A stretch of 64,000 nucleotides of DNA. Source: Campylobacter helveticus. Lineage in GTDB: Bacteria; Campylobacterota; Campylobacteria; Campylobacterales; Campylobacteraceae. The notes below the pieces were generated by a model that did not search any database, was not told the DNA's origin, and was given only the letters and a program-made list of their open reading frames with translations. A program made the translations under genes and the position numbers. Below, piece after piece: positions 11,119-63,246 of the stretch. Location: NCBI RefSeq assembly GCF_002080395.1, contig NZ_CP020478.1, positions 62,001 to 126,000 of the forward strand, read 5' to 3'. Position 1 is the first letter of the stretch; each line of letters starts with the position of its first letter.

Positions 11119-11511
11119 ATGAATGATTTAATCAATATCGAAATAGTAACTCCCTTGGGAATGATTTATCAAGGTAGCGTTCGTGCTGTAACTTTGCCCG
11201 GAAGTGAGGGAGAATTTGGCGTTTTAAAGGGACACGCGACCTTGGTTTCTTCTTTAAAATCTGGCGTCATTGATATAGAAAAGCAGGATTTAAAGCACGA
11301 GTTAGTAGCTATAGATTCTGGTTATGCTAAAGTAGATGAGAGTAAAGTTTGCGTTTTGGCTAAGGGTGCGGTTTGGGTTTGCGGCTCAAGTGAAAGTGAG
11401 ATTGAGAAAAATCTTAACAACGCAAAAGATTTAATCAAAGCTATGAGTTCGGATAATGCTGCTTTAGCGGCAACTTTTTCCAAGCTTGACAATGCTAAGG
11501 TAAATGTATGA
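11119..11511 (+). CDS. atpC: F0F1 ATP synthase subunit epsilon
   Basis: A 130-residue epsilon subunit: an N-terminal beta sandwich (IVTPLGMIYQGSVRAVTLPGSEGEFGVLKGHA) and a C-terminal helical pair that can inhibit ATP hydrolysis. It starts two bases after atpD stops and its last four bases overlap the next ATG, so the Tol genes are joined to the atp operon. Confidence 0.96.
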   Translation: MNDLINIEIVTPLGMIYQGSVRAVTLPGSEGEFGVLKGHATLVSSLKSGVIDIEKQDLKHELVAIDSGYAKVDESKVCVLAKGAVWVCGSSESEIEKNLNNAKDLIKAMSSDNAALAATFSKLDNAKVNV

Positions 11512-12065
11512 ATTTCGAGGCAATATTTCATTTTTTCAATGAGTCAAGCCCTATCACTTATGTGGTGTTAGCTTGGCTTTCTTTTTATTTTATCCTTTCT
11601 TTTGCCATACTTTTCGCGAGATTGACTTTTTTGGCAAATTGGCGCAGTAAGGAAAAAGAGAGTTTGGAAAGTCTGCTTTTGGGAGAGAAAGATTTAAGTC
11701 GCACAGATTCTATTTTGAGAAAATGCACGGATACGAGTTTAGCACATTTAGAAATTTATAAAAATTTAGCCTCTCGTCGCTCTTCTTTGGGACTGACTTG
11801 GCTTAGTATCATCGCTTCGACTTCGCCTTTTATAGGGCTTTTTGGCACGGTTATCTCTATACTTGAGACTTTTGGGGGGCTTGGCACACAAAATTCTTTA
11901 AGTATCATCGCCCCAAAAATCAGCGAAGCCTTAGTTGCTACGGGTTGTGGAATTTTAGTTGCTATCCCAGCTTATACCTTTCATCTTATCATCAAAAGAA
12001 AGGCGTTTGAGCTTTTAAGCATTATAGATAGTGAAATTAAAGCTATTAGTTCGCATAGGGTTTAA
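11508..12065 (+). CDS. tolQ: TolQ/ExbB-type proton channel protein
   Basis: A 185-residue MotA/TolQ/ExbB protein with three membrane segments (about residues 15-35, 95-117 and 140-160) and the conserved pore region GLFGTVISILETFGGLG plus ISEALVATGCGILVAIPAY. With TolR it uses the proton gradient to energise TolA. The name TolQ, not ExbB, is inferred from the tolR-tolA-tolB-pal context downstream. In C. jejuni this gene is usually labelled exbB3. Confidence 0.9.
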   Translation: MNFEAIFHFFNESSPITYVVLAWLSFYFILSFAILFARLTFLANWRSKEKESLESLLLGEKDLSRTDSILRKCTDTSLAHLEIYKNLASRRSSLGLTWLSIIASTSPFIGLFGTVISILETFGGLGTQNSLSIIAPKISEALVATGCGILVAIPAYTFHLIIKRKAFELLSIIDSEIKAISSHRV

Positions 12066-12457
12066 TGATGCCATTTGATGATGAAAAACCTGAGCTTAAT
12101 ATTACGCCTTTGGTGGATATTATGCTTGTTTTATTAGCCATTTTGATGGTTACAGCTCCAAGTATTACCTATGAAGAAAAGGTTAATCTCCCTCAAGGCT
12201 CGCAAAAAAGTGCAAGTTCGCCGAGCGTGAAAAGTCTTATTGTAAGTGTCAATGCTAAAAAAGAAATTTTTATTAATCAAGAAAAATATGACTTCGTATC
12301 TTTCGCGGATAATCTCGCACAAAAAAAGACACAATTTAACACCGAAGAGCCTGTTTTCATAAGAGCGGATAAGAGTTTAAAGTATGATGATGTGATTTTC
12401 GTTTTAAGAAGTGTGAAAAATTTAGGCTTTAGTAAGGTCGCCTTACAGACTGAATAA
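12065..12457 (+). CDS. tolR: TolR/ExbD-type proton channel protein
   Basis: A 130-residue protein with one membrane segment. The N-terminal NITPLVDIMLVLLAILMV contains the proton-carrying aspartate, and a periplasmic domain follows. It partners TolQ to energise TolA. The start overlaps the tolQ stop (TAATG); a second ATG at 12068 is also possible. Confidence 0.9.
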   Translation: MMPFDDEKPELNITPLVDIMLVLLAILMVTAPSITYEEKVNLPQGSQKSASSPSVKSLIVSVNAKKEIFINQEKYDFVSFADNLAQKKTQFNTEEPVFIRADKSLKYDDVIFVLRSVKNLGFSKVALQTE

Positions 12458-13224
12458 TGATGAAAAATTATGGCTTGAGTAATCTTACCTCCTTTTGTCT
12501 CGCTTGTGGGGTTTATTTTATCGTTGTGGGCTTTGTCTTTTTTAGGCTAGTTACTATGCAAGAGCCTGTTTTAAGTTATACGGATATAAAAGATAGTTTT
12601 ATTAATGTCGATTTAAGTGAAGCTTCTACGCAAATTTCAAGCCCTAAGCCCACTCCTAAGCCTCAAGAAACTCCGCTTAATGTTAATGACCTTTTTGCAC
12701 AAACAACGAATAAAATGGTAAAAACGGAAAATGTTAATCAAAAAGCCACAGATTTTAACGCTCTTTTTGGCAATGTCAAAGAAATACAAGAAGAAAAAAG
12801 CACGCAAATTCAATCTTCCAAAAAATCAGGACAAGGCACAAATTCCCAAAGTGCCGCCGAATTATTAAAGCAATTAAATGACAATCTTATCCCAGAAGAA
12901 AGCACCGCAAACGGACAAAGCGCACAAGTGCAAAAAACAGGAATTTACGATGAGTTTTTAGGTAAGGTTGAAAGGGTGATTAAACAGCGTTGGAGTCAAT
13001 ACTATCCTAATCCTAAAAATATAGGCGTCAAGGTAAAAATTTTCATCGATAGCGAGGGGAAATTCGGCTACACTTCGGTAGAAAAGAGTTATGATAGCAT
13101 TTTTGACGCTAAGGTTTTGGAATTCTTAGAAAGTCAAAAAGGCAAATTCATCGCCTATCCTCCTAAAAATAAGGGCGTAGCTATAACGATGAATTTGAAG
13201 GACGAGGGCGTAAGTTCGTTGTAA
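12457..13224 (+). CDS. tolA: TolA-like periplasm-spanning protein with TonB/TolA C-terminal domain
   Basis: A 255-residue protein with an N-terminal membrane anchor (about residues 8-30) and a Pro/Lys/Gln-rich linker (PKPTPKPQETPLN). A C-terminal TonB/TolA fold runs from about residue 165 to 250 (VERVIKQRWSQYYPNPKNIGVKVKI). It links the inner-membrane TolQR motor to TolB-Pal at the outer membrane for envelope constriction in division. The linker is much shorter than in enterobacteria. The next Tol gene, tolB, is pushed 2 kb away by an inserted restriction system. Confidence 0.85.
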   Translation: MMKNYGLSNLTSFCLACGVYFIVVGFVFFRLVTMQEPVLSYTDIKDSFINVDLSEASTQISSPKPTPKPQETPLNVNDLFAQTTNKMVKTENVNQKATDFNALFGNVKEIQEEKSTQIQSSKKSGQGTNSQSAAELLKQLNDNLIPEESTANGQSAQVQKTGIYDEFLGKVERVIKQRWSQYYPNPKNIGVKVKIFIDSEGKFGYTSVEKSYDSIFDAKVLEFLESQKGKFIAYPPKNKGVAITMNLKDEGVSSL

Positions 13225-40274: not shown

Positions 40275-41022
40275 TGTTTTTCCTCTTATTGATTTGATTT
40301 TTGTCTTCCTCTTTGAAAAATAGTTCTTTAAAGCGCTTGTTGGCATATTCTTCAATGTCTTTTTGTAAGATAGTGTAATTTTCCATTAATTCTAAGGCTT
40401 TTGGTGTGAGTTTTGTGCCCGATTTACTTGAACGCCCTTGTCTCGATTTAACAAGCACCTCTTGAGAATTTAGCTGAAGCGTTTGTAAATGCGTCCAAGC
40501 TTTTTTATAATTTATCCCCATAAGTTTAGAGGCGTGAAGTAAGCTTCCTGTTTGTGCGATGAGTTCCAAAAGCTCGGTTTTGCCCTTGCCAAAAAGCAAA
40601 TCCCCATCCGCATTTTCTATCCAAGTTTTTGTTTTTACGACAAATTGCTTTCCTCTTTTTTCTTTAAAGCAACCTAATTTGCAGTATTTTACATCTATTT
40701 TGTAGGTTTTAAGACTTGAGCGGACATTTTTAAGCCCAAAGCCTTGTTTGGCAACATCTCTTGCGTCTTTGCAAAAAATGCGTTTTTTCTCATCTAAAAA
40801 AGGCTCAAGAGCCTTTAGTGTTTCGATTTTGCCTTTTTCAAAATCTAGATGTCCAAATTGTCCTAATTCACAATTATCAATGCGAATTCCATTTTCGTTA
40901 GCGATTTTGCCGATTTCTTCGACTTTTTTATCAAATTTTTTAGCGATTTTAAACGCTGTTCCGCAGTCTAGTTTCTCGTTGCTATTTAAAAGCTCTTTCA
41001 TATAATTTACAATTTCATTCAT
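40264..41022 (-). CDS. modE: ModE-like transcription factor with HTH at the C-terminal end
   Basis: A 252-residue protein. The ModE-type winged helix (ELLELIAQTGSLLHASKLMGINYKKAW, then SRQGRSSKSGTKLTPKA) lies in the last ~100 residues, whereas classical ModE has it at the N-terminus followed by molybdate-binding TOBE domains. Here no TOBE is seen. Instead the first ~130 residues contain two similar units (IDNCELGQFG and VKYCKLGCFKEKRGK), each preceded by a C..A..IAK-like helix. It probably senses molybdenum or cofactor status for the formate dehydrogenase genes. ATG 41022 overlaps the fdhD stop. Confidence 0.75.
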   Translation of the reverse strand: MNEIVNYMKELLNSNEKLDCGTAFKIAKKFDKKVEEIGKIANENGIRIDNCELGQFGHLDFEKGKIETLKALEPFLDEKKRIFCKDARDVAKQGFGLKNVRSSLKTYKIDVKYCKLGCFKEKRGKQFVVKTKTWIENADGDLLFGKGKTELLELIAQTGSLLHASKLMGINYKKAWTHLQTLQLNSQEVLVKSRQGRSSKSGTKLTPKALELMENYTILQKDIEEYANKRFKELFFKEEDKNQINKRKNNEN

Positions 41023-41797
41023 CAATTCTAAATTCTCCGTTGTAAATGTTGATTTTATCTTCTCTTGCAAAGCCACAAAGGGTGAGATTAAATTTCCTCG
41101 CTATCATCACGCCAAGGCAAGTTGGTGCGGTGCGTGAAACAAGCACTGGGATTTTGTGCATTACCGCTTTTGCTACCATTTCGGAGCTTAATCTCCCACT
41201 CACCATTAAAAAACAATCTTGCAAATCAACCCCCGCAAGTCTTGCTTTGCCAAGTGCTTTATCTATAGTGTTGTGCTGGGCGATGTCCTCGCCGATGAAA
41301 AAGCTTTTTTCATCAACAAAAAGTTTTGCCGTATGCACACAGCCTGTTTTTTCGTATAAATCACATTGCGTATAAAATTCGCCCATTTGTTTAAGAATTT
41401 GTGTTTTGCTAAATTTGGCTTTAGAGTTGATTTGACTTGCTTGTATGGCTTCTGGGTCGATGTTTGCCGTGTGCGCTCTCCCACACCCACTAATGACAAC
41501 GCCCTCAGCATTAAGTTTTGCTAAATTTGCTTCATCAATTTTTGCTTTGATATGAACGCTCATTCCGTCATTTTGGCTTTCTATGTTTTGTATATCGCTT
41601 ACTTTAGCGATGATATTTTCACTCATTAAATAACCCACCGCTAAGGCTTGTTCGTCTGTGGGTGTAGCCATTAAAGCACCGATTTTTTCATCATTGACAA
41701 AAATTTCAAGCTTAATTTCACGCACTAAAGTATCTTCGCAAATGAGCCTCTCATCGCCCCTATATTTTACAATCTCGGTTGTAAATAAAGCCTCCAT
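41015..41797 (-). CDS. fdhD: Formate dehydrogenase accessory sulfurtransferase FdhD
   Basis: A 260-residue protein that passes sulfur to the molybdenum cofactor of formate dehydrogenase. DEQALAVGYLMSENI, the middle cysteine loop and APTCLGVMIARKFNLTLCGFAR at the C-terminus are diagnostic. The functional CxxC of E. coli FdhD is reduced to C105-G-R-A108 here, so only one cysteine remains. A strong ggagg site precedes the ATG and a TATAAT box (41826-41821, minus strand) lies 24 bp upstream, next to the end of the inserted plasmid. Confidence 0.92.
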   Translation of the reverse strand: MEALFTTEIVKYRGDERLICEDTLVREIKLEIFVNDEKIGALMATPTDEQALAVGYLMSENIIAKVSDIQNIESQNDGMSVHIKAKIDEANLAKLNAEGVVISGCGRAHTANIDPEAIQASQINSKAKFSKTQILKQMGEFYTQCDLYEKTGCVHTAKLFVDEKSFFIGEDIAQHNTIDKALGKARLAGVDLQDCFLMVSGRLSSEMVAKAVMHKIPVLVSRTAPTCLGVMIARKFNLTLCGFAREDKINIYNGEFRIDE

Positions 41798-42034: not shown

Positions 42035-42059
42035 GGGGGGGGGAACCCCCCCCCCCCCC
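42035..42059. repeat. Mirrored homopolymer G9-AA-C14
   Basis: Nine G (42035-42043), AA, then fourteen C (42046-42059), in sequence that is otherwise very AT-rich. Single-strand copies could fold as a 9-bp G:C snapback. Long G/C runs in Campylobacter change length during replication. This one lies between the HTH gene at 42083 and the 65-residue frame. Confidence 0.9.
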
Positions 42060-42082
42060 ACTTATGAAAGTTCAATAATTTT

Positions 42083-42554: not shown

Positions 42555-42641
42555 TTTTGTGAGCCTAAGGTCTCACAAAAATGCGGGCTAACGCCCTTGA
42601 AAAAAAGGGGGAAAGGGAGAGAATATGGGCGAGGGGGGGGG
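42555..42641. repeat. Hairpin cluster and G9 tract in the divergent intergenic region
   Basis: TTTTGTGAG (42555-42563) and CTCACAAAA (42572-42580) are a perfect 9-bp inverted repeat around cctaaggt. GGGC-taac-GCCC follows (42585-42596), then a G-rich stretch and nine G (42633-42641). The 249-bp gap 42485-42733 has no gene. It could hold operators, a transfer origin or a primase site; I cannot choose among them. Confidence 0.55.
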
Positions 42642-42679
42642 TTAAATGTTTTTAGTTTTTATTATATTAAGCTTTTTTA

Positions 42680-45206: not shown

Positions 45207-45830
45207 ATGATAGTTTCAGTCATCAACGAAAAAGGCGGAAGTGGAAAAACGAGTTTAGCGATTAATTTGGCTTGTAAATTAAATGATGAGGGGGATAAAG
45301 TTTTATTTTTAGATTTAGACCCTCAAAGAAGTGCCGAAATCTTTGTTAATATTAGAAAAGGCGAGAAACTTCAAAAGGCTTTTGATTACGAAAGAAAACC
45401 AAACCTCTTAAACACTTATGATAGTATCATCATAGATACAGGCGGAAGAGATAGTAAGGAAATGCACTTTGCTCTAAAAAATGCTGACATTGTTTTAATC
45501 CCCACTTATCCTAGTCAATATGATTTAGCAGTCTTAAATAATATGATAGAGCTTTTCATCAAAGAAGCTAAGAAGGAAGCAAAATGCTTTATCATTATTA
45601 ATAGAGCTTTTACAAATGCAAGTTTAAAAAATAGAATTTTAGATTTTAAAGAGCTTGTCAAAAACAAAACAAATCAAAACATTTTTTTAATGGATAGCAT
45701 ACTTTATGATAGAGAAGCAATAAGAAAAGCCACAAGTGAGGGCTTAGGCATATCTCAAACTCAAAATAATAAAGCAAAAAGAGACTTCTCTTTATTTTTT
45801 GATGAATTGATAGAAAAATACAACAATTAA
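45207..45830 (+). CDS. parA: Plasmid partition ATPase ParA
   Basis: A 207-residue type Ib-like ParA without a DNA-binding N-domain. Deviant P-loop NEKGGSGKTS is at residues 7-16, FLDLDPQRSA forms the Walker A' region and IIIDTGGRDS the switch II. It segregates the element when it is free. No obvious ParB follows; the AT-rich repeats just downstream could be the centromere and the small gene after them a candidate partner, but that gene reads better as an antitoxin. Confidence 0.88.
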   Translation: MIVSVINEKGGSGKTSLAINLACKLNDEGDKVLFLDLDPQRSAEIFVNIRKGEKLQKAFDYERKPNLLNTYDSIIIDTGGRDSKEMHFALKNADIVLIPTYPSQYDLAVLNNMIELFIKEAKKEAKCFIIINRAFTNASLKNRILDFKELVKNKTNQNIFLMDSILYDREAIRKATSEGLGISQTQNNKAKRDFSLFFDELIEKYNN

Positions 45831-45986: not shown

Positions 45987-46253
45987 ATGAAAAATTGTGG
46001 AATTACAATCAAAAACTTCGATGAAAGTTTTTTACCTATTTTTGAAGCTATGGCTAAAAGTATTCAAGCAGAATATAAATTATTATCAACAAAGACTAAA
46101 ACACAAAAAAAGCAAGTTTTAACCGAAAATGGTTATACCCCTGAGTTTGAAGCAAAAATGTTAAAAGAAGCTAAAGACATAAAGGAAAATCCTCATTTGT
46201 ATAAAAGCTATAAAAATGTCGATAAAATGTTTAAGGATATTTTAAATGACTAA
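45987..46253 (+). CDS. Antitoxin partner of YafQ-like toxin (RelB/DinJ type)
   Basis: An 88-residue protein overlapping the toxin start by eight bases. The N-terminus ITIKNFDESFLPIFEAMAKSI could be a short strand-helix dimerisation region, and the C-terminal half (NGYTPEFEAKMLKEAKDIKENPHLYKSYKNVDKMF) is the charged toxin-wrapping tail common to RelB-family antitoxins. The assignment rests mostly on the coupled YafQ gene. Confidence 0.75.
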   Translation: MKNCGITIKNFDESFLPIFEAMAKSIQAEYKLLSTKTKTQKKQVLTENGYTPEFEAKMLKEAKDIKENPHLYKSYKNVDKMFKDILND

Positions 46254-46524
46254 ATATGAAATTAAATATTTAAAGCCTTTTAAAACAAATTTGAAAAAAA
46301 TTAAACACGATAAAGAGAACCTAAAATGTATTAAAGACATTATAGAAAAACTTGCCAACGATGAAGTTTTAGATAAAAAACATAAAGACCACGCATTAAA
46401 GGGTAATTTAAAGGCTTTTAGAGAATGCCACATTAAACCTGATTTACTTTTAATCTATCAAAAACTAGAAAAAAAGCTAATTTTGTATTGTATCAATATA
46501 GGCTCACATGGTGAGATATTTTAA
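46246..46524 (+). CDS. YafQ-family mRNA interferase toxin
   Basis: A 92-residue RelE/ParE-superfamily toxin that cleaves mRNA on the ribosome. The YafQ catalytic set is present: H49 (HKDHALKGNLKAFR), H62 and D66 (ECHIKPDLLLIY) and H88 (INIGSHGEIF). With the preceding antitoxin it stabilises the element by killing plasmid-free cells. Confidence 0.88.
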   Translation: MTKYEIKYLKPFKTNLKKIKHDKENLKCIKDIIEKLANDEVLDKKHKDHALKGNLKAFRECHIKPDLLLIYQKLEKKLILYCINIGSHGEIF

Positions 46525-46554
46525 GAAAACGAAACATTTTAGAAAGGAAAAACA

Positions 46555-46794
46555 ATGACTTTAAACGCCATTATTGAAAAAGATGACAATGGATATTTTG
46601 CTTATGTGCCTGAATTAAAAGGTTGCATAAGCGAGGGAAACACTTATGAAGAGGCTCTTGCAAATATTAAAGAGGCGAGTGAGCTTTATTTGGAATCCTT
46701 ACAAGAAGAGGAAATTAAAACTCTACAAACAAAATCAATCTCTATTACCTCAATACAAGTAAAATCACCTATACAAGTAGGATTAAATGCCTGA
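46555..46794 (+). CDS. hicB: HicB-family antitoxin
   Basis: A 79-residue HicB with the partial RNase H-like fold (AIIEKDDNGYFAYVPELKGCISEGNTYEEALANIKEASELYLE). There is no clear C-terminal DNA-binding domain. It comes before hicA, the reverse of the classical hicA-hicB order, and overlaps it. The leader attttagaaaggaaaaac is identical to the one before the gene at 47009. Confidence 0.88.
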   Translation: MTLNAIIEKDDNGYFAYVPELKGCISEGNTYEEALANIKEASELYLESLQEEEIKTLQTKSISITSIQVKSPIQVGLNA

Positions 46795-46987
46795 ATTGCC
46801 TAAATTAACCGCTAAAGAGGCTGAGAAAATTTTACTTATCAATGGTTTTAGTCTTGATAGGCAAAAAGGTAGTCATAGAATTTATATTAAAAGCTCATAT
46901 AGGGTTGTTTTGCCTCATCATAGTGGAAAGATTTTACACCCCAAAATTATCAAAGAGCTTTTTAATATCATAGTGCTAGCCAAATAA
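46787..46987 (+). CDS. hicA: HicA-family mRNA interferase toxin
   Basis: A 66-residue HicA toxin with a double-stranded RNA-binding-like fold. The catalytic histidine is H30 in QKGSHRIY, followed by HHSGKILHPKIIKELF. Its ATG overlaps the hicB stop. It forms the second toxin-antitoxin module in the same direction after YafQ. Confidence 0.88.
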   Translation: MPELPKLTAKEAEKILLINGFSLDRQKGSHRIYIKSSYRVVLPHHSGKILHPKIIKELFNIIVLAK

Positions 46988-47008
46988 ATATTTTAGAAAG
47001 GAAAAACA

Positions 47009-47266
47009 ATGAGCGTTTTAAAGAAAAATCATTTCAAAGACATTAGCATTAAAAAGGATAATCACAATTCTTTTGATGAGCTTATGGAAAAAGAAAGCGA
47101 AATAGAAACTAAAAAGACAAGAGGCAGACCTAAAAAAACAAATAAAAAAGACTGCACCTATACTTTTTACTGCACCAAAGAAGAATTAAAAGAACTCGCC
47201 CTAAGAGCAGAAAAAAGGTATCTTAGTATGAGTGAATATTTTAGAATGAGGCTCTTTGCAGAATAA
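47009..47266 (+). CDS. Small DNA-binding protein with AT-hook and ribbon-helix-helix-like end
   Basis: An 85-residue basic protein. The middle has a perfect AT-hook core (KKTRGRPKKTNKK) and the C-terminal ~40 residues (CTYTFYCTKEELKELALRAEKRYLSMSEYFRMRLF) look like a ribbon-helix-helix domain of plasmid MobC/CopG type. It lies eight bases before the alarmone synthetase gene, so it may be its repressor or antitoxin, or a relaxosome accessory protein for the relaxase on the other strand. Confidence 0.65.
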   Translation: MSVLKKNHFKDISIKKDNHNSFDELMEKESEIETKKTRGRPKKTNKKDCTYTFYCTKEELKELALRAEKRYLSMSEYFRMRLFAE

Positions 47267-47274
47267 GGCTAATA

Positions 47275-48237
47275 ATGATTACAAAAGCACTCATTAGAAC
47301 AATCGGCAACCATTTAAGAGCTAATACTCAAAGTGATGAAGATTTAGAAAAACTTAATCTTTATAGAAACACCCATATTCTAGTGATGAATACACTCATT
47401 AATACCATTAAGGATAAAACTCCTAAACCTTTATTTATCGCCAGAAGATTAAAAAGATTAAGCTCCATTAAAAGCAAACTTAAACGCTTTTGTTCTATGC
47501 AACTTGATAGAATGCAAGATATAGGGGGAGTTAGAGCTGTTTTTAAAGATATTAAACAAGCAAAAGAATATAAGGATAAAATAGAATTACTTTATAAAAA
47601 TGAAAAAAGAGCCTTAAAAATTGTAAAAATTAATGATTATGTAACTTACCCAAAAGAAGACGGATATAGGGGCTATCATATCGTTTTTGAATATCATAAA
47701 GGCAAAGAGGAATTAAAGAGCTACAAAATAGAATTTCAAATTAGGGACTTAAAGCAACATTACTGGGCGACTGCTGTTGAAATCTTTTCTTTAATCTCTA
47801 AGCATAACCTTAAAAGCGGTGAGGGAGAAGAAGAGCATAAAAGTTTTTTTTATCTCTGCTCTAAACTTATCCACAATGAAGCAAATAAAAAGGAATTAAA
47901 CACCCTTAAAAAACTCAATCAAAAACATAAAATTCTTTCTCTTTTAAGCGGAATTAACCTAGCCTTTCATCATATCGACACTAAACAAAAAGACTTATAT
48001 TATTTAATTGCACTTAATTTTAATAAAAAACAACTCAGCTCTTATATTTTTCATAAAAATGAATTAGATATGGCAAGTTTTTTATATGAAAAGCTTGAAA
48101 AAGATGAAAGCATTAACGCCGTTTTAATTGATATTGATAGCATTAAAAACCTAAAAAAAGCCTATCCTAATTATTTTGGAAATGCTAAGGAATTTATCAA
48201 ACTTATCCAAGAAAAACTTAACAATGAGACTCTTTAA
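47275..48237 (+). CDS. RelA/SpoT-domain alarmone synthetase, small type (possible toxSAS)
   Basis: A 320-residue protein. The synthetase domain occupies about residues 40-200: DRMQDIGGVRAVF (near 80), EDGYRGYHIVFEY (near 130) and IEFQIRDLKQHYWATAVE (near 152) keep the catalytic aspartate, tyrosine and glutamate. No HD hydrolase domain is present. The C-terminal ~120 residues have no recognised domain. It could make (p)ppGpp or pyrophosphorylate tRNA, as toxic small alarmone synthetases do; those usually sit beside an antitoxin, and the candidate here is the AT-hook gene. Confidence 0.8.
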   Translation: MITKALIRTIGNHLRANTQSDEDLEKLNLYRNTHILVMNTLINTIKDKTPKPLFIARRLKRLSSIKSKLKRFCSMQLDRMQDIGGVRAVFKDIKQAKEYKDKIELLYKNEKRALKIVKINDYVTYPKEDGYRGYHIVFEYHKGKEELKSYKIEFQIRDLKQHYWATAVEIFSLISKHNLKSGEGEEEHKSFFYLCSKLIHNEANKKELNTLKKLNQKHKILSLLSGINLAFHHIDTKQKDLYYLIALNFNKKQLSSYIFHKNELDMASFLYEKLEKDESINAVLIDIDSIKNLKKAYPNYFGNAKEFIKLIQEKLNNETL

Positions 48238-48429
48238 ATGGCAAGTCAAGCACTTAATCTCGCCAAAAAAGATAAATTTGATGAATTTTATACTAAGCTT
48301 AGTGATATAGAAAAAGAATTAAGCCATTATAAAGAGCATTTTAAGGGCAAAATTATACTTTGCAATTGTGATGACCCTAAAATTAGCGCTTATTGCGTGG
48401 GGTTATTGGCGAATTTGCTTTTTAATTAA
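48238..48429 (+). pseudogene. N-terminal stump of an EcoRI-like adenine methyltransferase
   Basis: A 63-residue frame starting directly after the alarmone synthetase stop (TAAATG). DEFYTKLSDIEKELSHYKEHFKG and IILCNCDDPKIS match the N-terminus of the EcoRI-type N6-adenine methyltransferase family, usually over 300 residues. The frame then turns into unrelated residues and stops ten bases before the relaxase end. The remainder of the gene is gone, so a deletion has joined this stump to the mobilisation region. Confidence 0.7.
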
Positions 48430-48439
48430 ATCCCAACCC

Positions 48440-50119
48440 TTAAAAGCTCCGCCCCATATTATTATTTTGCTCTTTTAAAGAAGCTTGTTTTTGATTATTT
48501 TTTTGCGGATTATTATATTTTTGCTGAATTTCTTCATAAAGATTTCTATGCACTTTTTTCTCACCCATTAAAGCTTTTCTACCACCCACTTCACTCATAT
48601 TTGAAGCACTACTTAACACTTTTTTTACTTTATTTTCAAGTCCTAAAAACTCACAACCTCTACTATATTCTCTTAATAAAAAATTATTTTTACCTCCTTT
48701 TAATATAAGCTCTTTTTCGATTGTTTTAAAGCGATTTTTATAGATTTCTCCTATATAAGAAAGGTTTTTTTTCAAATCTAAAAGATAATTCTCGCTTTCT
48801 TGTTTTAAAAAATAATCCATATTCTTTAAAATGTAAATATTTTCATTTAAAGCCTTAGTTTTTTTCTCAAGCTCAAATAAATTTGTATTCTCAAAAGTAT
48901 AATCTTTATAATAATTTTTGCTATACAATAAGACATTTTCTTTTATCTCTTTTGTTTCAAGCTCTAAAGACTTTTTAACCCTATAATAATTTTGTATATC
49001 TTTTTTACTTGCTCCTTTGTGAAGCGGATACATCTTCTCATAAGACCTTAAAAAATTTCTTTTATATTGTGAGCTTTCAAAACGAGAAAGCGTGTGAATT
49101 TTTAAATCATTTTTAGAATTATCAAGTGAGCGATTTAATCTTTTTAATTCCTTACTTTCTTTAATAAGTTCTTTACCCAATCGCTTTAATTTTAATCCGT
49201 GTTCTTTAATTTGTTTAGCTAAAATAAATTTTCTTTTGTTTTGGTGTCTTATATATTGTTCTAATAATTTTTGAAGCTCGGTGTGATGATTTTTTACTTC
49301 TTCAAATTCTATTTTTAACGCTTTAACTCTTTGTTCTTTATCTTTAATTTTTTGATTAAAAGATTTATAAATATCTTCATAAATTGTCGAAATACCAAAT
49401 TGAGAATCTGCTTTTAAAAGCCTGTCTGTTCTTTGCACTTTTTTTATACTTTCTTCTAGGTTTTTTTCTAAAGGACTGCGATTAATATACTGCATTCCTC
49501 TTATACTTAAAGCAAGGGCAAACTCTTCTCTTAAACTATCAAATAAATATTTTATATCCGTTTTTTTTGCAAAATGCAAACGCTTATATTCTAAAAAATT
49601 AAACTTATTTAATACAACATGAACATGCGGTCTAGCTTGGTGTTTATGAATCACAAAAGCATATTTGCGTCCAAAAAAATGACTTGCCATTACATCTTTA
49701 ACACTTTCTTTTAAAGCTCTTTCTTTTTTGGGTGTTAAATAATCTTCATCTAAAGAAAAAACTAAATGCCACGCCTCTTTAGAATTTTCTCTATTTAAAA
49801 AATTTTTGCTCCAATCTTTCATAAGCTCTTCTAAAAAAACCTCTTCCCCCTTTTCATTAATTGCAAAAGTATTTTCACTATTTTCTATAATATAATTTAA
49901 AGCATTATAGGTTCTTTTTGCTCCCATATTCCCTATTAATTTTACTAAGACTTGCTTATGATTTTTAACTTTGTTTTCAACTTTTTTAAAAGTTCTAAGG
50001 CTAACAACTCTTCCAAAAATATAATGGTGTTTAGCAGGCAAATCAGTTTTTGTAAAAGCACTTCTTTTAACTTTTAATTCTTCAATAAATTCTTCTAAAT
50101 AACTTTTATTCTCACGCAT
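48440..50119 (-). CDS. Relaxase / mobilization protein (MOB_P-like)
   Basis: A 559-residue relaxase that nicks the transfer origin and pilots the strand. The catalytic tyrosine is probably Y71 in MGAKRTYNALNYI, and the metal-binding triad lies in IHKHQARPHVHVV (H158, H160, H165, H167). The rest is long charged helices (about 230-480), as is common in Mob proteins. The name motif order fits Pfam Relaxase. Its ~800-bp upstream gap should hold oriT. No type IV secretion genes are present, so transfer would need a helper. Confidence 0.85.
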   Translation of the reverse strand: MRENKSYLEEFIEELKVKRSAFTKTDLPAKHHYIFGRVVSLRTFKKVENKVKNHKQVLVKLIGNMGAKRTYNALNYIIENSENTFAINEKGEEVFLEELMKDWSKNFLNRENSKEAWHLVFSLDEDYLTPKKERALKESVKDVMASHFFGRKYAFVIHKHQARPHVHVVLNKFNFLEYKRLHFAKKTDIKYLFDSLREEFALALSIRGMQYINRSPLEKNLEESIKKVQRTDRLLKADSQFGISTIYEDIYKSFNQKIKDKEQRVKALKIEFEEVKNHHTELQKLLEQYIRHQNKRKFILAKQIKEHGLKLKRLGKELIKESKELKRLNRSLDNSKNDLKIHTLSRFESSQYKRNFLRSYEKMYPLHKGASKKDIQNYYRVKKSLELETKEIKENVLLYSKNYYKDYTFENTNLFELEKKTKALNENIYILKNMDYFLKQESENYLLDLKKNLSYIGEIYKNRFKTIEKELILKGGKNNFLLREYSRGCEFLGLENKVKKVLSSASNMSEVGGRKALMGEKKVHRNLYEEIQQKYNNPQKNNQKQASLKEQNNNMGRSF

Positions 50120-50919: not shown

Positions 50920-51816
50920 TTAATTTTTTATTGTTCTTTTTTCAAAAACAAACTGAAAACCTGTAACTTTTTTTCTCTCATTATTCCAAGTATAAAGCTT
51001 TTCATAGGTTAAATTTTTAAAAGATGAGCTTTTTCCGTTTAATTCTTTTAAAGAGGGGATTACCACAAAGCAATCTAGCTGCGACATTTTATAATTGCTC
51101 GGCGTATCCATAAATTTTATAAACTCACCCTTAGTCATAGAAATTGCTTTTATGCTAGGGTTTTCTTTATCTGCGTAAAAATTTGAGTTCTCATATTGCT
51201 TAAGAAGTCTAAAGAGTGATTTGGTATATTTGTTTTCAAAAGAGCAAAACTCATTCATATCAAAACTCATAAAATTACCAAATTCATTTAGCATAGAGTA
51301 GGCATAAGGGGTAAATTCTAAATAAAGCTCTTCTTTTTCTTCATCAAGTATATAATTTTTTATAAAAACCGCACCTTTTAACTTTCTCTTGCCATTATCC
51401 AAATCTTTCATTGTTCCGTCTTCTTGCGCCATTTCATCATATTCAATACTATCTACACCAACTAATTTTAGTTTATATTTAACAAATTTAGCAATTTCAT
51501 CAAAAAACCTCTTTTTGTTTTTCATTTGAGGAAGAAAGATTCTTAAATCGCTAAATTTAATTTTAACACCTCTTAAAGTTTTTCTTTTGTAGTTACGCTT
51601 AATTCCAAAATAGCAAATTGTAAAAAAGAGATTGAAATCCATAGCTGAAAAATTAGGAAATTTAATCGTATTCATTTCATTACGATACACAATATTAGAA
51701 TCTTTAGAAATCCCAATTTTAACTTTGACTAAATCCTTTGCCTGATTTTCCTTTGTCATTTTCAAAATATAATTCCCTTCCACAAAGTCAAAGGTTACTA
51801 ATTTTTTACAGCCCAT
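50920..51816 (-). CDS. Replication initiator, Rep_3 family
   Basis: A 298-residue initiator with two winged-helix parts. The stretch FNLFFTICYFGIKRNYKRKTLRG, the central ELYLEFTPYAYSMLNEF and SFENKYTKSLFRLLKQYENS are typical of Rep_3 (RepB/RepE) proteins that bind iterons. ATG 51816 has aaggag eight bases upstream; an earlier in-frame start at 51852 has none. It suggests the element can replicate by itself, or did before insertion. Confidence 0.85.
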   Translation of the reverse strand: MGCKKLVTFDFVEGNYILKMTKENQAKDLVKVKIGISKDSNIVYRNEMNTIKFPNFSAMDFNLFFTICYFGIKRNYKRKTLRGVKIKFSDLRIFLPQMKNKKRFFDEIAKFVKYKLKLVGVDSIEYDEMAQEDGTMKDLDNGKRKLKGAVFIKNYILDEEKEELYLEFTPYAYSMLNEFGNFMSFDMNEFCSFENKYTKSLFRLLKQYENSNFYADKENPSIKAISMTKGEFIKFMDTPSNYKMSQLDCFVVIPSLKELNGKSSSFKNLTYEKLYTWNNERKKVTGFQFVFEKRTIKN

Positions 51817-52031
51817 AATAACTACTCCTTGTATTAAAAAATTATTTATCACTTTATGACATAATTTTAATAATAGAAAGTTATAATAATTTCCTTAGAA
51901 GAGGATAGTTGTGGGGTGAGATTCTCTTCCCTTAATATTTTAAATAGAAAAAAACATAAAAACTATAAATGCCTAAAATGGGTGTTTATGAATATTGGTT
52001 AAAACTCAATGGGACATTTTAAGGGCTTCAT
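51817..52031. other. Right end of the element and recO leader
   Basis: A 215-bp gap with no clear gene. GAAGAG (51898-51903) and CTCTTC (51924-51929) make a loose inverted repeat. A 17-codon frame (ATG 51969 to TAA 52022, MPKMGVYEYWLKLNGTF) ends over the recO ribosome-binding site and could be a leader or a gene remnant. The plasmid-chromosome junction should lie here. Confidence 0.4.
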
Positions 52032-52646
52032 TTGCAAGGCTTCATTTTACACACGCAAAGGGTTAAGGACGAGGATTTAATCGTCTCTATCTTAAGCCCC
52101 AAAGCACTTTTAAAAACATATCGGTTTTATGGATTAAGACACTCAAGCATACTAAATGGCTACAAAATCGACTTTGCACTTGAAGAAAACGCCACCTTTC
52201 TTCCCCGCCTTAAAGATGTGCTTCATTTGGGATTTTCGTGGATTTTGGAACGAGAAAAAATGCTTTTTTGGCAAGAATTTATCCGCTTATTGTATCAGCA
52301 TTTAAAGGAAGTTAGTGAGCTTGATAGCTTTTATTTTGACTTGCTTGATGAGTGTGCCAAACGCTTTTTAAAACAAAATCCAAAACGAGTTATTTGTGAT
52401 GCTTATGTAAAAATTTTGGAATTTGAGGGGAGACTGCATAAAAATTTTGTTTGCTTTGCTTGTGATGAAAAGATACAGGGAAACATCACGCTTTTAAGAG
52501 CTTTTTTGCCCTCTCACGCTCTTTGTGCTTTTTCTTATGAATTCCCACGCCAAAAACTTGAAATTTTTTACGAGAAAAAAAACTGCTCCATTTTTGATGA
52601 TGAAGAAATAAATCAAATTTACGAACTCATCAAACAAGGCTTATGA
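52032..52646 (+). CDS. recO: DNA repair protein RecO
   Basis: A 204-residue RecO, a recombination mediator that loads RecA with RecR. The N-terminal OB fold (MQGFILHTQRVKDEDLIVSILSP) and a helical C-terminal domain with a reduced zinc site (FVCFACDEKI) are seen; the product is shorter than E. coli RecO, as usual in epsilonproteobacteria. Start is TTG 52032 with aaggg six bases upstream. Its end overlaps the convergent gene by six bases. Confidence 0.8.
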   Translation: MQGFILHTQRVKDEDLIVSILSPKALLKTYRFYGLRHSSILNGYKIDFALEENATFLPRLKDVLHLGFSWILEREKMLFWQEFIRLLYQHLKEVSELDSFYFDLLDECAKRFLKQNPKRVICDAYVKILEFEGRLHKNFVCFACDEKIQGNITLLRAFLPSHALCAFSYEFPRQKLEIFYEKKNCSIFDDEEINQIYELIKQGL

Positions 52647-61664: not shown

Positions 61665-63246
61665 TCTTGTCCTTTAAATGAAAAATGCTCTCACTGTAAG
61701 CATTTGTATCCTTTTCGCTACGATTTAGCACGGGTCTATCATAGCGTTTAACAATCTGCATTCCCGCCATTTGGGCAATACTTGGATAGAGATTAAATTT
61801 ATCATTTGCTACTAAAAACACATTGTAATCTTGCTTTAAAAAGTTTTTTGCGTTGTTTAAAGCCATTGCGATTGCTTTTGCATAGTTTTCTTTAGCATTC
61901 TTGCTTTGCCCCTTTAGTTTCGCACCTATCTCTAAGGCATCTTTTCGTTCCAAATTAAATAGTTCATAACTATAAGCGTGTTGCTCGTGATAGTCTATCA
62001 ATCCCACATAAGGTGGGGAGCTAAAGATTCCAGCAATTTTTTGCGAATGCAAGAGATTAGCAAAAGTGGGATTTTGCTTTTTTACTTCGTTTATAATATC
62101 CACATTGCAAGAATCTGCATTAAGACATAAACTAAAACAATCGCTTCTTAAAGTCTCAAACTCTTTGATTCTCTTTAGCGTATCCTTTGCATAGCTTTTA
62201 AACCATTTTAAAGAGCTAAAAAGTGGCTTACAAATCCTGCCGTGCTTTTTGCAATAATAGCTCTTTAACATAGGCTCTTTTAAAGTAGTCAAATCAGCGT
62301 GTGTTGTCGCTCTACAACTGCGTGCTGTTCGGCTTAAGATAATGCTTAAAATATTTTGCAAGTCTTTGGGAGCTTTTATAATTTCATTTTTCAGTAAAAT
62401 AAGTTCTTTCTTGATGGATTCTATATACCAAAAATCTAAAAAACTTCCATTATTTTTAACATTTAAATCAATATTGAATTGCTTAACTAGCTTGTCATAA
62501 ATGCTTAAAAATTCTCTTTCTTTTATTTCTCCATAGACTTTTTCATCAATTTCTTTTAGCACCACTTTGCGTTTAAATTCTTTAGGAAAAAACTCTGCAT
62601 TAAACGCATTTAAATGTTGAGTTAAAGTCTCTTCAAAAGCCTTTATATTGCTATTTTCATAAAAAGATTCTAAAACTTGGATAAGTCTATAGCATTCACT
62701 TTCTAAAAGATTACTATCATAACGCCCTAATTTTGCATTAACAAGCATAGTATTAAAGCAAGAAATGTCAATCCCAATGCTGTGCATCCCCAATTCACTC
62801 GCCACACATAAAGTCGTGCCACTTCCCGCAAAAATATCTAGCACAATATCGCCTTTTTGAAAGCAAGATTCTGTCTTTAGTGTATCAGTATGAGAGTCTA
62901 AAAAATACTCCACAAGCTGAGGGATAAATTTGCCTTTGTAGGGGTGGAGTCTATGGATATGCTTAGTTGTCTCTACTTCTTTATAATTTGCAAAAGCGAG
63001 TGGGTGGCTATGGCTTTCTTGTGTGTAAAGCGTATCATAATAGGCTTTTAACTCATCTTTGCTAATCAAGTTTTCCTTAGAATTTGTCGCATAATTTGCT
63101 ACTTTGCCATAGTTGATAAGATAGAGAATGTTTGAGCTTGTTACATTTTTGTTAAGATACGCACTAGCCCAGACGCTTGCTTCTTTTGGTGCAAAAAACT
63201 GCTTAAAATTATTTATTCCTTGTGCCATTCCCCAATTCCCACTCAA
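61648..63246 (-). CDS. DNA methyltransferase of the TdeIII-like system
   Basis: A 532-residue modification enzyme. AdoMet motif IVLDIFAGSGTTLC is at residues 134-147 and catalytic SSPPYVGLIDYHEQH near residue 410. The SPPY form indicates N4-cytosine or N6-adenine methylation, and the long spacer should hold the target-recognition part. Motif order I then IV differs from the enzyme at 13253, so the two systems are unrelated. A second in-frame ATG lies at residue 7. Confidence 0.87.
   Translation of the reverse strand: MSGNWGMAQGINNFKQFFAPKEASVWASAYLNKNVTSSNILYLINYGKVANYATNSKENLISKDELKAYYDTLYTQESHSHPLAFANYKEVETTKHIHRLHPYKGKFIPQLVEYFLDSHTDTLKTESCFQKGDIVLDIFAGSGTTLCVASELGMHSIGIDISCFNTMLVNAKLGRYDSNLLESECYRLIQVLESFYENSNIKAFEETLTQHLNAFNAEFFPKEFKRKVVLKEIDEKVYGEIKEREFLSIYDKLVKQFNIDLNVKNNGSFLDFWYIESIKKELILLKNEIIKAPKDLQNILSIILSRTARSCRATTHADLTTLKEPMLKSYYCKKHGRICKPLFSSLKWFKSYAKDTLKRIKEFETLRSDCFSLCLNADSCNVDIINEVKKQNPTFANLLHSQKIAGIFSSPPYVGLIDYHEQHAYSYELFNLERKDALEIGAKLKGQSKNAKENYAKAIAMALNNAKNFLKQDYNVFLVANDKFNLYPSIAQMAGMQIVKRYDRPVLNRSEKDTNAYSESIFHLKDKNETSH

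Follow-up and report, generated by a model that had tools for sequence, protein, structure and literature searches.

A predicted fused CapRel carried as cargo by an integrated mobilisable plasmid-like element of Campylobacter helveticus

The closest described relatives of the synthetase analysed here are the fused CapRel proteins, among which CapRel-SJ46 and CapRel-Ebc are characterised. CapRel-SJ46 of Salmonella phage SJ46 [PDB: 7ztb, 9erv (PMC9712102; PMC11578894)] is triggered by the capsid protein or by Gp54, and CapRel-Ebc by Gp0.4 together with FtsZ (PMC9712102; PMC11578894; PMC13423816). PADLOC holds a model, PDC-S33 (phage defence candidate, single gene), which is the only PADLOC family matched by CapRel-SJ46 (E = 7e-87) and is best taken as a model label, not as a separate system. 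The bicistronic toxSAS FaRel2/ATfaRel2 (PMC11782079) has a related toxSYNTH domain and a pseudo-zinc-finger domain (pZFD) with a YXXY motif, but its antitoxin is a separate, circularly permuted gene, whereas the antitoxin of the protein described here is fused. The first-pass annotation of this DNA had proposed an undescribed system; the existence of a family model and of characterised members places the locus within a known one. A literature search on PDC-S33 and on CapRel in Campylobacter found nothing relevant.

The window, a stretch of 64,000 nucleotides, covers positions 62,001–126,000 of the 1,758,726-bp contig NZ_CP020478.1 (G000:C1:62001-126000) of C. helveticus. Three open reading frames, all on the + strand, lie at 47009–47266, 47275–48237 and 48238–48429, with gaps of 8 bp and 0 bp. 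From this spacing co-transcription is plausible; promoter and terminator scans gave matches at chance level only.

The middle frame (capRel; 47275–48237, +) encodes a protein of 320 residues whose sole Pfam domain is RelA_SpoT synthetase (PF04607, E = 2.6e-15). The absence of a hydrolase domain agrees with the first reading of the sequence. A phmmer search of the PDB aligns residues 19–313 with CapRel-SJ46 [7ztb_A, E = 2.8e-31, 112 bits; 9erv is likewise CapRel-SJ46], and PADLOC matches PDC-S33 over residues 3–315 (E = 7.5e-92). The gene has the same domain order as CapRel-SJ46, the same pZFD topology and, like it, is a single gene free of a companion. When the functional residues reported for CapRel-SJ46 (PMC9712102) are mapped by alignment, R58, R87 and the G-loop tyrosine Y131 of the toxSYNTH pyrophosphokinase domain (residues ~50–175; 47422–47799, +) correspond to R79, R116 and Y155, and the YXXY neutralisation motif Y297-P-N-Y300 (48163–48174, +) corresponds to Y352/Y355. 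Of the interface scaffold residues, A77, V338, L339 and A351 have identical equivalents in A56, V283, L284 and A296. A341, whose change to lysine makes CapRel-SJ46 a toxic enzyme, is replaced by D286, a position at which 62 of the 75 homologues have S or A. The two proteins differ in length (320 against 373 residues), share ~33% identity overall and differ in the pZFD, the loops of which are shorter in the C. helveticus protein. Because the C-terminal domain is shorter and has no equivalent of L307 of CapRel-SJ46, neither known CapRel trigger can be transferred to it.

An AlphaFold2 model built from an alignment of 75 sequences has a mean pLDDT of 92.3 and a pTM of 0.89. The synthetase is followed by three helices (186–225), strands 241–248 and 253–260, helix 261–275 and strand 280–287; the chain closes with a short helix (298–301) that covers the YXXY motif and a last helix (305–319). 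The block 241–287 (pLDDT ~89–92) forms the core of the predicted pseudo-zinc-finger antitoxin/sensor domain (residues ~239–289; 47989–48141, +), with the β-β-α-β topology of CapRel-SJ46 (PMC9712102), and the predicted fold follows the order of anchor and pseudo-zinc-finger described for that protein. Foldseek against the PDB ranks 7ztb and 9erv first (7ztb: E = 1.3e-20, 348 columns). The superposition on both is poor (TM-score 0.66–0.69, r.m.s.d. 10–11 Å, ~350 columns), which may mean that the two domains are closed on each other in one structure and open in the other. A structure search of viral proteins returned weak and partial matches only.

Sequence and model thus indicate that 47275–48237 encodes an intact fused CapRel, in which the domain of a toxic small alarmone synthetase precedes an antitoxin/sensor domain of its own at the C-terminus. 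The first-pass annotation had guessed at a C-terminal trigger or antitoxin domain, as in fused CapRel proteins, and the end-to-end alignment with CapRel-SJ46, the PDC-S33 match, the conserved residues including YXXY and the AlphaFold2/Foldseek result bear it out. The ~120 C-terminal residues that it called uncharacterised correspond to the predicted CapRel antitoxin/sensor domain.

Relatives were found once an alignment was used as the query: single-sequence searches of genome contigs and viral contigs returned nothing, and profile searches gave at least 559 relatives among at least 585 pattern matches in bacterial genomes and 193 relatives among 198 pattern matches in viral contigs. In the order of the source organism, 13 of 399 genomes carry capRel. 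The nearest relatives among the matches listed, 47–48% identical overall and ~60–63% in the synthetase, are CapRels of Campylobacteraceae prophages (L069, L070 and L074) and of viral contigs (L159 and L162), the former sitting among prophage early genes. Their pZFD is 31% identical to that of the C. helveticus protein, so their triggers are probably different. In another genome of the genus capRel is a lone gene, placed after a flagellar hook-like gene.

The catalytic and neutralising residues are strongly conserved: R58, R87, Y131 and Y297 are invariant in all 75 homologues and Y300 is kept in 72. Median identity to the C. helveticus protein over the same set is 42% for the synthetase, 29% for the pseudo-zinc-finger core, 29% for the linker and 50% for the YXXY hinge; an enzyme better conserved than its sensor matches what is reported for CapRel sensors.

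The same data bear on what the enzyme makes. A small alarmone synthetase that produces (p)ppGpp or (pp)pApp, acting in stress signalling or as a metabolism-targeting toxin and not in tRNA modification or phage defence, would also carry a RelA_SpoT domain, which is common to RelQ and RelP and from which the product is unreadable by sequence alone. We regard this as very unlikely. CapRel alone matches over the whole length, whereas RelQ and RelP match the domain only (~120 residues) at 43–55 bits or less, against 112 bits for CapRel-SJ46; neutralisation of the donor site by YXXY/pZFD goes with tRNA-modifying toxSAS (PMC11782079); and in the tree the C. helveticus protein groups with Campylobacteraceae and viral-contig CapRels (SH-aLRT 98%), with long Rel proteins and Listeria SAS outside on long branches. 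Tree and domain-limited matches also dispose of a housekeeping Rel, a placement that the first-pass annotation had named as fatal to its proposal; on this count the synthetase candidate survives.

The first-pass annotation had taken the locus to be plasmid-borne. Since the window belongs to a contig of 1,758,726 bp, the locus is chromosomal in assembly GCF_002080395.1, and it lies inside an integrated element whose genes are of plasmid type. The gene of CapRel-SJ46, in contrast, is on a phage-plasmid. The element is bordered by fdhD on the left (41018–41797) and recO on the right (52032). G+C content falls to 22–31% over ~42–52 kb of the window, compared with 33–45% in the chromosome just to the left and 28–41% to the right. 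These ~10 kb hold a Rep3-type replication initiator (50920–51852, −; PF01051 E = 8.2e-10, PF21205 E = 2.9e-9) and a ParA partition ATPase of 207 residues (45207–45830, +; NF041546 E = 8.4e-36, below the curated cut-off), both element backbone, as well as a MobA/VirD2-like relaxase (48440–50119, −; PF03432 E = 8.6e-10) and two toxin-antitoxin pairs. The relaxase is ~32% identical to those of C. jejuni plasmids and 47.5% identical to the relaxase of an integrated element in the same genus. The two pairs, already recognised in the earlier reading as preceding the synthetase operon, consist of a YafQ/RelE-type mRNA interferase toxin (46246–46524, +; PF15738 E = 8.9e-28, TIGR02385 E = 2.2e-21) with a putative antitoxin of 88 residues (45987–46253, +), which is immediately upstream, overlaps the toxin gene and has no significant Pfam family, and of a HicB-like antitoxin (46555–46794, +; PF15919 E = 2.1e-10) with a HicA toxin (46787–46987, +; PF07927 E = 2.7e-12).

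The same-genus element (L252; G035:C1:1574000-1590000) resembles this one in relaxase (47.5% identity), ParA (58%), HicA (77%), HicB (63%) and ribbon-helix-helix (RHH) protein (47%), and it has a tyrosine-recombinase-like frame at 11462–12586 of its locus. It has no capRel, from which we conclude that capRel is optional cargo. Searching plasmids at the DNA level turned up neither capRel nor the complete element; the matches were confined to fragments of methylase, YafQ and HicA.

As to how the element arrived, the order in two close relatives is ribD–tRNA-Ala–tRNA-Val–recO, with both tRNA genes preceding recO. In C. helveticus recO borders the element (window 52015–52035), and the tRNA pair is found ~21 kb further on, on the opposite strand (L066 9097–9253 = G000:C1:135097-135253); the frame beside this pair, judged by eye, looks like a tyrosine integrase gene cut short after its start. 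The likeliest reading, and an inference, is integration of the element at tRNA-Val, followed by an inversion that split it.

A 27-nt leader, AAACATTTTAGAAAGGAAAAACAATGA, stands before hicB (46532–46558) and again before the small AT-hook/RHH gene (46986–47012), the copies being 96% identical; a search of the whole genome allowing up to 2 mismatches found no third copy. With hicBA flanked by direct repeats that have no other copy in the genome, the arrangement suggests a cassette-like insertion of hicBA. A 506-bp part of the Rep3 gene (window 51312–51817) is 99% identical to a second site in the same genome (L037 10064–10569 = G000:C1:1105063-1105568), at which the N-terminal part of Rep continues into another C-terminal frame, within a conjugative-type region adjoining tRNA-Asn; the duplication may reflect a chimeric Rep gene or a recent recombination. 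Near the left border, window 42036–42060 consists of a G run, two A and a longer C run, and a second G run follows at ~42630–42642. The runs at 42036–42060 are a possible phase-variable tract or a weak spot of the assembly.

The frame upstream of capRel (47009–47266, +) encodes a protein of 85 residues with a NikA-like RHH region (PF21983, E = 3.8e-7) and a GRPKK AT-hook-like motif (sub-threshold, E = 0.22), as the first-pass annotation had described it. Among type II antitoxins RHH proteins are frequent. The gene is adjacent to capRel, 8 bp away and on the same strand, an arrangement that would suit the main idea of the first-pass annotation, a two-gene toxSAS module with the AT-hook/RHH protein as antitoxin or regulator of the synthetase. 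We nonetheless hold such a module to be extremely improbable. Neither 160 capRel loci of the collections nor 20 others, 180 loci that include some near-copies, yielded a relative of the AT-hook gene nearby, so that the conserved pairing expected of the two genes is lacking there, an outcome that the first-pass annotation had itself named as refuting the module; nor do these loci share any companion gene beyond groups of closely related phage contexts. The synthetase, moreover, already has a complete antitoxin domain with YXXY, which also argues against a bicistronic toxSAS of the FaRel or PhRel type.

The relatives of the AT-hook gene are found in another setting. In plasmids, and in integrated elements or contigs from related genomes, they come after parA, with no capRel found there. 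PF21983 is above cut-off in four of these relatives and weaker in two more. In six of the seven Campylobacter and Helicobacter plasmids sampled a small gene comes directly after parA, and one also follows parA in three related elements or contigs. Of the five such plasmid genes examined, Pfam recognises four as NikA-like (three exceed the cut-off and one falls just short of it); that of one C. jejuni plasmid gave no NikA-like match. The order parA, small RHH gene, convergent relaxase of the C. coli and C. vicugnae plasmids is the same as in the window, with the difference that in the window two toxin-antitoxin pairs separate parA from the RHH gene, and capRel with the methylase stump separates the RHH gene from the relaxase. 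Given this association with parA in Campylobacterota plasmids and elements, the AT-hook gene is best read as coding for a putative partition or relaxosome DNA-binding protein of the element, and was rejected as an antitoxin or partner of CapRel. Because the two genes are 8 bp apart it may lend capRel a promoter, any read-through being an accident of insertion.

The frame downstream of capRel (48238–48429, +) is the stump of an adenine methylase of EcoRI type (PF13651, E = 2e-20), which upholds the methyltransferase stump of the first-pass annotation. It matches approximately the first 49 residues of the family (positions 2–49 of 345) and then diverges; among the other capRel loci one distant methylase relative was found, at one locus (L094). 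The stump is a remnant and not a component of the capRel system. A truncated neighbour, in a chromosome that is rearranged around the element and that has no tRNA-Val at its expected place beside recO, is also what one might see if capRel itself were decaying cargo with no current function. This we judge very improbable: the frame is open over 320 codons and has lost none of the key residues, even though identity to the nearest relatives is only 47–48%, from which we conclude that it was under selection until recently.

We consider it very likely that the gene encodes a self-contained fused CapRel, autoinhibited through its YXXY motif, released by phage and carried as cargo of a mobilisable plasmid-like element. 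In such a protein the toxSYNTH domain would be kept inactive by its own C-terminal pZFD; from the conserved residues and homology, Y297 and Y300 would sit between R58 and R87 as a plug of the ATP site. Binding of a phage product, or of a host protein in complex with one, to the C-terminal domain would release the plug. By homology to CapRel-SJ46, the freed enzyme would pyrophosphorylate tRNA 3′-CCA ends, translation would stop and the infection would abort. The gene itself would ride in the slot between the parA-associated RHH gene and the relaxase of the integrated element. As the sensor is shorter than that of CapRel-SJ46 and 31% identical to its nearest relatives, its trigger is not predictable from known CapRels. 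A more elaborate version, in which capRel is expressed from the operon of the partition or relaxosome protein, so that copy number or transfer of the element controls defence, and in which the short divergent sensor recognises a trigger unlike those of CapRel-SJ46 and CapRel-Ebc, seems to us unlikely.

The gene is best regarded as an ordinary member of the fused CapRel family that probably stops protein synthesis on phage infection. A precise CapRel identity replaces the candidate for a new system, and what is known of CapRel biology offers a starting point for tests. The family gains a Campylobacter-type CapRel whose carrier is a mobilisable, integrated element, with a divergent sensor (~31% identity to its nearest relatives, against ~60% for the enzyme) that fits the known diversification of CapRel sensors against phage triggers. 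For Campylobacterota plasmids, the comparison indicates that their small AT-hook genes go with parA and not with neighbouring toxin genes.
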